DNA of 64,000 bases from Catellatospora sp. IY07-71 (GTDB taxonomy: Bacteria > Actinomycetota > Actinomycetes > Mycobacteriales > Micromonosporaceae). The translations under genes were made by a program, and so were the position numbers. How positions within the stretch are numbered: position 1 is the stretch's first letter; every line of letters starts with the position of its first letter. Positions 52,490 through 54,081 of the stretch are shown one piece after another. The notes below the pieces were generated by a model, which was not told the DNA's origin, searched no databases, and saw only the letters and a list, made by a program, of their open reading frames with translations. The stretch covers positions 7,995,001 through 8,059,000 of the forward strand of contig NZ_AP023360.1 of the NCBI RefSeq assembly GCF_018326265.1, written 5' to 3'.

Positions 52490-53110
52490 CTACTCGGCGG
52501 ACTCCGCGGCGGCGGCCTCGACGATGATCCGCTCGGCGACCTCGCGCATCGTCAGGCGGTGATCCATCGCGGTGCGCTGGATCCACTTGAACGCCTGCGG
52601 CTCGTTCATGCCGTACTGCGTCATCAGCGCGCCCTTGGCCCGCTCCACCGCCTTGCGGGTCTCCAGCCGGTCGTTGAGGCCGGCGACCTCCGCCTCCAGC
52701 GCCGCCACCTCGGCGAAGCGGGAAAGCGCGATCTCGATGGCCGGCACGAGGTCGCTCTGCTGGAACGGCTTCACCAGGTACGCCATCGCGCCCGCGGCAC
52801 GCGCCCGCTCCACCAGGTCCCGCTGGCTGAACGCGGTCAGGATGATCACGGGGGCGATGCGCGCGCCGGCGATGCGCTCGGCGGCGGCCAGACCATCCAT
52901 GATCGGCATCTTGATGTCCAGGATGCACAGGTCGGGGTGCAGCTCCTCGGCCAGCTTCACCGCGGTCTCGCCGTCACCGGCCTCGCCGACCACGTCGTAG
53001 CCCTCCTCGCCGAGCATCTCGGCCAGGTCCAGCCTGATCAGCGCCTCGTCCTCCGCGATCAGCACGCGCTTGCGCGCGACACCAGCCTGCTTCTCGGTCA
53101 CCGGAACCAC
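52490..53110 (-). CDS. pdtaR: ANTAR-domain response regulator PdtaR
   Basis: The 206-residue regulator has a receiver domain (VLIAEDEALIR; phosphoacceptor Asp in CILDIKMPIMDG, about 68) and a C-terminal ANTAR RNA-binding domain (about 140-200; AKGALMTQYGMNEPQAFKWIQRTAM). ANTAR proteins bind paired hexaloop RNA hairpins and act as antiterminators. It corresponds to M. tuberculosis Rv1626 in its syntenic place. The start is uncertain: GTG at 53110 is used and GTG at 53101 or 53119 are equal candidates. The cognate sensor kinase PdtaS is not in this window. Confidence 0.92.
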   Translation of the reverse strand: MVPVTEKQAGVARKRVLIAEDEALIRLDLAEMLGEEGYDVVGEAGDGETAVKLAEELHPDLCILDIKMPIMDGLAAAERIAGARIAPVIILTAFSQRDLVERARAAGAMAYLVKPFQQSDLVPAIEIALSRFAEVAALEAEVAGLNDRLETRKAVERAKGALMTQYGMNEPQAFKWIQRTAMDHRLTMREVAERIIVEAAAAESAE

Positions 53111-53134
53111 TACCCCCACACCACGAGCCAACCT

Positions 53135-53157
53135 TGACACGCCTAATCCGGGTGTCA
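53135..53157. promoter_or_regulatory. Inverted repeat between pdtaR and the tRNA gene
   Basis: TGACAC-N11-GTGTCA is a perfect 6-bp inverted repeat in the divergent promoter region. It may be an operator, or part of the tRNA promoter (TTGACA at 53134). Confidence 0.4.
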
Positions 53158-53202
53158 CTGGCATCAGCCTAGTAGGTACGCTAATGCCTGCCGCACTCCA
53201 CG

Positions 53203-53276
53203 GTCCCCGTATCCCAATCGGTAGAGGAACGGAGCTCAAACCTCCGACAGTGTGGGTTCGAATCCCACCGGGGGCA
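53203..53276 (+). tRNA. tRNA-like gene with CAA anticodon and short variable loop
   Basis: A 74-base cloverleaf folds by eye: acceptor gtccccg/cgggggc with one G-T pair, D-arm tcc/gga with loop containing CGGTAGA, anticodon stem cggag/ctccg with loop CTCAAAC (anticodon CAA at 53237-53239, U33 and A37 present), a 5-base variable loop, T-arm gtggg/cccac with TTCGAAT and discriminator A. CAA would read Leu UUG codons, but bacterial tRNA-Leu has a long class II variable arm, which is absent here. CCA is not encoded. It is either a non-canonical tRNA-Leu or a tRNA-derived element. Confidence 0.85.
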
Positions 53277-53295
53277 CTTTGCACACTTCAGCGCC

Positions 53296-54081
53296 GTGTC
53301 GTACCGACCGTCCAGACTGACGTACGTGCATCCGCTGTCCGTGCGAGCCACCGCCCGCGACCTCCATCGCAGCGGCCTGACCATCGCCGAGGTCTCCCGA
53401 CGGCTCGGACTGTGCTATCACACGGTCTCGGTCTGGTGCCGCCGGTCGATGCCCACCGACGCGGTGCCCGACCGCAGCCGCGACCGGTGCCCTCGGTGCC
53501 AGGAGCCACCTGGACCGCCCGGCGACCCGGCCGCCTACGCCTACCTGCTCGGGTTGTATCTCGGCGACGGATATCTGGCGCTCGGCGCACGGGTGCCGGT
53601 GCTGCGGATCGCCTGCGCCGACGCATACCCGCAGATCATGGACGAATGCGAGCGGGCGATGCGAGCCGTGCTCGCCCGCAGCGTGTCGCGGGTGCACGCG
53701 ATCGGCTGCACCGCCGTGCAGAGCGTCGCCAAGCACTGGCCATGCCTGCTGCCGCAGGCGGGCCGGGGCCGCAAGCACGAGCGGCCGATCACACTGGCGC
53801 TGTGGCAGCGCGATGTAGTCATCGGGCACCCCGGCTACTTCGTACGCGGGCTGTTCCACTCCGACGGCTGCCGTTCGATCAACCGCGTCACCGTGCGCGG
53901 CAAGACCTACGAGTACCCGCGCTACCTGCTCGCCAACGAGTCCGCCGACATCCTCGGGCTGGCCGGCTGGGCGCTGGACCTGCTCGGCGTCGCCTGGCGG
54001 CTCAACCGCCGCAACTCGCTGTCCGTCGCGCGCCGCGACGCCGTCGCCCTGCTGGACCAGCACGTCGGCCCCAAGTCCTGA
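53296..54081 (+). CDS. HTH plus two-motif LAGLIDADG homing-endonuclease-like protein
   Basis: The 261-residue protein has an N-terminal helix-turn-helix (about 16-50, LTIAEVSRRLGLCYHTVSVW), a CxxC pair (65-68), and two LAGLIDADG-like motifs: YLLGLYLGDGYL (83-94, Asp 91) and YFVRGLFHSDGC (181-192, Asp 190), spaced about 100 residues as in monomeric LAGLIDADG endonucleases. The C-terminal NESADILGLAGWALDLLGV helix is typical of LAGLIDADG_3-type folds. It is not inside an intron or intein but stands 19 bp downstream of the odd tRNA. The GTG start at 53296 could be replaced by GTG at 53326. Whether it cleaves DNA or is a regulator is open. Confidence 0.8.
   Translation: MSYRPSRLTYVHPLSVRATARDLHRSGLTIAEVSRRLGLCYHTVSVWCRRSMPTDAVPDRSRDRCPRCQEPPGPPGDPAAYAYLLGLYLGDGYLALGARVPVLRIACADAYPQIMDECERAMRAVLARSVSRVHAIGCTAVQSVAKHWPCLLPQAGRGRKHERPITLALWQRDVVIGHPGYFVRGLFHSDGCRSINRVTVRGKTYEYPRYLLANESADILGLAGWALDLLGVAWRLNRRNSLSVARRDAVALLDQHVGPKS

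Follow-up and report, generated by a model that had tools for sequence, protein, structure and literature searches.

We report on two adjoining genes in a 64,000-nucleotide stretch of the Catellatospora sp. IY07-71 genome (contig NZ_AP023360.1, positions 7,995,001 to 8,059,000; hereafter the window): a tRNA-Leu(CAA) gene and, starting 19 bp past its 3' end (53276 to 53296), a gene whose product carries a helix-turn-helix (HTH) and two LAGLIDADG motifs, referred to below as the nuclease. This protein probably belongs to a family of freestanding LAGLIDADG homing endonucleases resident at tRNA-Leu genes, whose intronless homing would swap the adjoining tRNA by co-conversion. The two genes are adjacent across the family, the nuclease keeps its catalytic-type Asp residues and is under purifying selection, the tRNA is single-copy and structured, and the chromosomal locus stays the same. 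Alignments of related loci indicate bounded replacement blocks and a tRNA class tied to the nuclease lineage and not to the flanking gene. The nuclease would presumably cut DNA, and the cut, at a position considered below, would drive the replacement. The features of the unit are as follows.

53203..53276, plus strand: tRNA-Leu(CAA), 74 nt, 5-nt variable loop, class-I-sized; sole CAA tRNA of the genome
53296..54081, plus strand: HTH-LAGLIDADG freestanding homing-endonuclease-like gene, 261 aa; alternative start GTG at 53326
53344..53445, plus strand: N-terminal HTH, residues 17-50; HTH_23 match, model helices 14-25, 30-37 and 41-49
53488..53499, plus strand: CPRC (CxxC), residues 65-68, read from the sequence; C65 in 78/85 nucleases
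53542..53571, plus strand: LAGLIDADG motif 1, YLLGLYLGDG, with catalytic-type Asp91; Asp in 85/85
53836..53868, plus strand: LAGLIDADG motif 2, YFVRGLFHSDG, with catalytic-type Asp190; Asp in 85/85

The tRNA-Leu(CAA) gene and its nuclease neighbour

The first-pass annotation of this region, which had described a 74-nt CAA tRNA without a long arm followed after 19 bp by a freestanding HTH-LAGLIDADG open reading frame (ORF), was confirmed. The long variable arm, the hallmark of class II tRNAs, is absent from the window tRNA, and tRNA was the only family matched in an Rfam scan of the window at gathering score. As in freestanding homing genes, the nuclease gene lies outside any intron or intein (the tRNA is uninterrupted and the ORF stands free), adjoins a candidate target gene, and has relatives with occupied and empty alleles.

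The genome is a single contig of 8.6 Mb with 60 Rfam tRNA matches. ARAGORN read 58 tRNAs in the stretches around the other 59 matches, with no CAA among them, and a genome-wide search with a CAA pattern gave two matches, the window tRNA and a stretch within a tRNA-Glu(TTC). The window tRNA is therefore the only tRNA-Leu(CAA) of the genome, and an extra or suppressor tRNA was ruled out. Among the other leucine tRNAs read by ARAGORN, CAG, GAG and UAA are long; the only UAG tRNA read (G000:C1:404990-405062, L242:2991-3064) is class-I-sized too, a 74-nt short form, and no nuclease was found beside it within the 6.5 kb examined.

Across the 64 distinct class I CAA tRNAs of the loci compared, A73, U8-A14 and the 15-48 pair are kept in 64/64, the latter as A-U in 56 and as G-C in 8. 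In their alignment, 98.7% of 1344 cells are paired and double changes occur in 225 cells versus 57 in shuffles. Because cloverleaf pairing, covariation and leucine identity bases are all kept, the class I CAA tRNA bears the mark of a functional tRNA, and the cloverleaf of the window tRNA is intact. Covariation across the full cloverleaf in relatives rules out the decayed pseudogene that had been named as a way to refute the first-pass annotation. In the available part of a 2023 review, leucine identity in E. coli is assigned to A73, A15-U48, G18G19 and A20a, with the variable arm not needed (PMC9976931); since these elements exclude the variable arm, leucine charging of the class I CAA tRNA is expected. 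Nothing was found in favour of the decoy or altered decoder that had been suggested, given the bases kept in 64/64.

The LAGLIDADG fold of the nuclease is supported by a structure model of the window protein, whose fold matches include I-DmoI, I-Tsp061I and PI-SceI, with WhiA also among them. The 85 sequences used for residue counts are intact nucleases only, truncated genes having been left out; for L058 and L074 the start was taken after an in-frame TGA near the N-terminus. The nuclease is under purifying selection. A Pfam scan of the window protein matched no WhiA model, PADLOC gave no match and PHROGs only weak matches for the nuclease, and a promoter and terminator scan found nothing.

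Pairing and tRNA forms across Actinomycetota

The nuclease occurs in 89 of the 394 genomes searched across the class. The comparison set consisted of 88 survey loci and 7 named relatives; G013, a 135-bp edge fragment, was left out, and two genomes represented twice (L013 = L061, L031 = L065) entered the trees once each. A tRNA-Leu lies at most 343 bp from the nuclease in 96/97 locus records, that is in 94/95 genomes, the exception being L026, whose contig ends 77 bp upstream of the nuclease. The pairing is beyond chance, conserved and, as the first-pass annotation had thought possible, widespread in actinomycetes; the count of homologues that it had proposed spoke against chance adjacency. The short-variable type of tRNA, whose frequency it had proposed to score, recurs in 57 of the 96 records (class I CAA), the others having class II CAA (32) or class II UAG (7). 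The CAA gene is on the same strand as the nuclease in 83 records and on the opposite strand in 6; the UAG gene is on the opposite strand in all 7. The same response regulator gene adjoins 86/97 records and is missing at the UAG loci and at L007, L008, L026 and L092. In the window it is:

52490..53101, minus strand: response regulator, usual neighbour of tRNA-Leu(CAA) across the class, which we take to be of the ANTAR type

A search of 296 genomes of the phylum gave matches in 26, of which 9 were strong and already known from the class search. It added 15 strong loci in 14 genomes, 15/15 beside a tRNA (CAA 10, UAG 1, CAG 2, UAA 1, overlapping, and Trp 1); three weak matches had no tRNA alongside. 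Across the family the nuclease lies upstream or downstream of the tRNA-Leu and in divergent or convergent arrangement. The view of the tRNA as special to the nuclease must be given up, since the family also sits beside long-arm CAA, UAG, CAG and UAA genes and once beside a tRNA-Trp. Four loci of one genus (L027, L042, L045 and L053; f22 g73) differ from most others: here the nuclease is divergent to tRNA-Leu(CAA) and lies on that side of it where the regulator is found. At L061 and L065 one tRNA-Leu(CAA) is followed by two tandem nucleases from different parts of the nuclease tree.

Nine IMG/VR contigs, several near-identical to each other and of about five kinds in all, carry distant relatives of the nuclease (27-36% identity), and in 8/9 a tRNA (Leu UAA, Leu CAA, Met or Ala) overlaps the relative or lies within 75 bp of it. 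On one of these contigs (L269:2716-3516) a short tRNA-Leu(CAA) lies inside the ORF of the nuclease relative, between the HTH and the first LAGLIDADG motif. Named phages and plasmids searched with the nuclease gave no match at the limits used. No paper on the pairing of tRNA-Leu with HTH-LAGLIDADG genes was among the matches listed in one open-access library.

The class I CAA pattern, which misses some true cases (e.g. L073 and L078), was found in 226/394 genomes of the class versus 89/394 for the nuclease, which rules out that the nuclease created the short arm. Each of 38 chosen genomes without a nuclease match contains a CAA tRNA according to the pattern, G164 twice with identical sequence; G092 and G354 have second matches (pattern only). 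Of 30 loci from nuclease-free genomes, 28 were read as tRNA-Leu(CAA), 23 of class I and 5 of class II, and all 28 adjoin the regulator gene. In 18/20 further stretches from other families a tRNA-Leu(CAA) of either class again lies by the regulator, the remaining two being the window genome's UAG tRNA and a stretch in which no tRNA was read. Class I and class II tRNA-Leu(CAA) alternate at one chromosomal place, because both sit beside the same regulator. A short arm is no special mark of the unit, and the odd, special tRNA initially proposed is instead the genome's sole tRNA-Leu(CAA), in a form common without the nuclease. In three groups, nuclease carriers have class II tRNAs more often than expected (23 observed vs 17.6 expected, CMH p 0.0098, phylogeny ignored).

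Four similar tRNA-like sequences were seen elsewhere in the window genome (L122, L123, L126 and L127, at G000:C1 3894078, 4836484, 5871204 and 6254616). They share the D-arm region GCGCAG..GTCGTCGCGCC and differ at the anticodon, read as GCG in one, as GCU (short-arm form) in one and oddly in two. Three score low against Rfam, and the group looks like an unusual tRNA family; L127, scored by Rfam with no ARAGORN read, has an anticodon other than CAA by by-eye alignment to its sisters. A divergent tRNA cluster (Ala, Arg, Cys, Glu, Gly, Pro, Tyr and others) at L110 (G000:C1:1415365-1422976) resembles a phage-type tRNA array.

Replacement blocks, linkage and variability

Tract maps were compared for pairs with similar regulators and different tRNAs. 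For the window's genus the block is:

53110..53900 (approximate): block divergent from Catellatospora sichuanensis (L004) next to a similar regulator, from L001 vs L004 and L003 vs L004; it spans the 5' flank, the tRNA and the nuclease to about codon 180-200

L003 (class I) and L004 (class II) share 92-100% identity in the regulator; they diverge from roughly 50 bp ahead of the tRNA and are again 90-97% identical in the final fifth of the nuclease, beyond which lies a diverged intergenic stretch. L033 (class II) and L068 (class I, truncated nuclease) likewise have regulators 92-100% identical. Some 50-60 bp ahead of the tRNA their identity drops to 34-74%; at roughly nuclease codon 147 it recovers to 86-94%, and further on it is 86-100%. 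The same block was found in L036/L056, with regulator identity of 90-98%, and in L030/L063, with a patchier right edge. Pairs were kept if their regulators were at least 92% identical and their tRNAs less than 85%. In the Streptomyces-like genus g28, 6/7 pairs passed, with mean identities of 0.94 for the regulator, 0.63 for the tRNA, 0.55 for the N-part of the nuclease and 0.79 for its C-part; in Catellatospora, 4/10 pairs, all with L004, gave 0.96, 0.51, 0.57 and 0.80. Both close pairs in f19 share the tRNA. Block replacement is thus visible in the tract maps, and a cut may be its cause.

The g28 nucleases split into clade A, with a class I tRNA in 14/14, and clade B, with class II in 11/15 (Fisher p 5e-5). 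On the nuclease tree of these 29 rows the tRNA class takes 4 changes versus a mean of 9.0 and a minimum of 6 in 200 shuffles, whereas on the regulator tree of the same rows it takes 9 changes (shuffle mean 9.0). Independent pairs on the regulator tree, about 3 in agreement, 0 opposed and 2 without difference, are too few. In g28, tRNA distance is correlated with that of nuclease residues 1-146 (r 0.49, p 0.0005) and neither with residues 150-261 (r -0.01) nor with the regulator (r -0.03); of the two nuclease parts, only the C-part tracks the regulator (r 0.26, p 0.0035; N-part r -0.03). The f19 tRNA likewise tracks the N-part, though weakly (r 0.18, p 0.018), and shows no such relation to the C-part.

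The CAA tRNA itself is hypervariable in g28, with 26 distinct sequences among 30 and a mean difference of 0.35, its variable positions clustering in the D and anticodon stems. The tRNA-Leu(CAG) used as comparison has 6 real alleles among 30, its mean difference of 0.106 being inflated by one false ARAGORN 'cag' row (L203). In f20, a family without a nuclease match, an identical CAA 30-mer occurs in 33/33 class I genomes, and four genomes have whole-tRNA identities of 0.97-1.00 at regulator identities of 0.85-0.94, a regulator divergence comparable to that of g28 (mean 0.87, 60 random pairs).

Pieces of tRNA were searched for at 141 loci, with and without the nuclease. Relics occurred in two, L007 (tRNA positions 27-73, beyond the nuclease) and L236 (the 3' half from about position 21-28, about 100 bp past the intact tRNA), and both are consistent with a break within the anticodon arm or close to it. 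No relic was found near the window's own unit at 16 of 20. As to an integrase-type island, tRNA 3'-half repeats occurred in 2/141 loci and none near the window unit; no integrase family search was made. A C-terminal nuclease remnant of 21 residues is retained at L149, and none was found in the other 29 nuclease-free loci scanned. Nucleases are truncated, split or partly matching in 12/88 survey loci (L068, L081, L082, L085 and L090-L097). Homing genes pass through a life cycle of gain, decay and loss, which such decay and absence in relatives fit.

Interpretation and known systems

By intronless homing, the process we consider probable, nuclease-bearing DNA would enter a relative and the nuclease would cleave the allele already present there, at the tRNA-Leu gene or close by. 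Repair would then copy the donor block, comprising the 5' flank, the tRNA and at least the N-terminal half of the nuclease, and the host would exchange its tRNA for the functional one of the donor, in some cases with a switch between long and short arm. Of the first-pass suggestion that the protein spreads or regulates the unit, spread is probable from the block replacement and regulation is disfavoured by the Asp residues kept in 85/85.

Several results weigh against this interpretation. Class I tRNAs are present in families without the nuclease, and relics are as few as noted above. The N-part tracks the regulator too in f19 (r 0.29, p 0.005). The nuclease tree mostly follows host family, with 9 changes over 85 rows (an overcount, named and coded families being mixed), which places transfer chiefly within families. 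No correlation between g28 tRNA and N-part remains within class I (n=18, r 0.02) or class II (n=11, r -0.04), and L052/L018 and L059/L048 share tRNAs (97% and 98% identical) and not N-parts (59% and 55%); the linkage is therefore established at the level of tRNA class only, and fine matching of tRNA sequence to N-part finds no support within classes. Finally, tRNA-Leu(UAG) of f2 g3 is distinct in 18/18 genomes without and 7/7 with the nuclease, and six nuclease-free g28 genomes hold several CAA alleles. Under intronless homing this variability would need past loss of the nuclease.

A stronger form of the homing interpretation, which we put forward tentatively, is a natural cleave-and-rescue system, in which the nuclease would cut the single-copy tRNA-Leu gene within the anticodon arm and carry a functional, uncuttable tRNA. 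The tRNA gene would then be the target and its donor copy might confer immunity. A cell that repaired the cut without taking up the cassette would lose a tRNA, and the cassette would spread for this reason; in spreading it would time and again have swapped tRNA-Leu of the long-arm and short-arm types, leaving actinomycetes with a hypervariable core tRNA. It is rather doubtful that the unit reflects safe-harbour hitchhiking instead, with intergenic DNA near tRNA-Leu as the target and the tRNA a passive part of the conversion tract, neither target nor rescue. Plain linkage of the tRNA to the nearby N-terminal coding end would yield the class-level association, and the nil correlation within classes and the different N-parts under one tRNA in L052/L018 agree with it. 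However, the occurrence of the nuclease in all orientations and beside CAA, UAG, CAG and UAA genes points to the tRNA gene itself, UAG loci lie away from the regulator, the relics start in or next to the anticodon arm, and variation clusters in the D and anticodon stems.

Those variable stems are of the type read by anticodon nucleases. The tRNA might accordingly vary to escape tRNA-cutting toxins or defence nucleases, at a recombination hotspot with the homing-type nuclease as a bystander, and the variable tRNA-Leu(UAG) of f2 g3 without the nuclease would agree; this is improbable, as it leaves the near-constant adjacency unexplained and the nuclease-free f20 tRNAs are nearly invariant. Still less probable is a domesticated, WhiA-like protein that binds the tRNA or promoter and controls expression or processing. 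The HTH, purifying selection, the gene's position immediately downstream of the tRNA in the window and the predicted fold match to WhiA favour such a role. The catalytic-type Asp residues are, however, kept, unlike in WhiA (PMC4255298, in the part available), and the tRNA does not need the nuclease, because the latter is present in only 89/394 genomes and defective or partial in 12/88 loci.

If homing is the cause, a core tRNA gene of bacterial chromosomes would owe its turnover, losses and gains of the variable arm among it, to a selfish nuclease. Such a process would supply a cause for changes in tRNA genes, generally regarded as slow, and a natural parallel to home-and-rescue gene drives. 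The short-arm tRNA-Leu(CAA) also makes recognition by leucyl-tRNA synthetase directly testable. Its presence in 226/394 genomes, here as the sole CAA isoacceptor, contradicts the 2023 review, in the available part of which tRNA-Leu is long-armed everywhere but in animal mitochondria (PMC9976931).

Like I-DmoI, I-Tsp061I and PI-SceI, the nuclease has two LAGLIDADG motifs with invariant Asp and, by its structure model, the same fold, but those enzymes belong to introns or inteins, whereas the window nuclease is freestanding and has an extra N-terminal HTH and CxxC. WhiA is a domesticated LAGLIDADG regulator with its HTH at the C-terminus, whereas the HTH of the window family is N-terminal. The available part of a report on WhiA (DUF199) describes it as lacking catalytic residues (PMC4255298), unlike the window family with its invariant Asp91 and Asp190. 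Engineered cleave-and-rescue or home-and-rescue drives, in the portion of the source at hand (PMC7968924), similarly link a nuclease to a functional replacement of the gene that may be cut; they are synthetic and made for insects, whereas the window unit is natural and its cleavage of the tRNA gene putative. Mycobacterial tRNA clusters that were gained by horizontal transfer and contain HNH homing genes include a short-variable-loop tRNA-Leu(TAG) in a cluster with a homing gene, but their tRNAs are described, in the part available, as extra beside normal ones (PMC6582537), whereas the short tRNA of the window stands at a conserved locus as the sole isoacceptor. The closest precedent appears to be SegB of phage T4, a freestanding GIY-YIG homing endonuclease among tRNA genes, for which the accessible part of the report describes intronless homing and preferred inheritance of the tRNA gene region (PMC2988022). 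SegB acts in a phage genome on a phage tRNA cluster, whereas the window unit pairs a LAGLIDADG protein bearing an HTH with the cell's only tRNA-Leu(CAA) on a bacterial chromosome, where the tRNA class switches.
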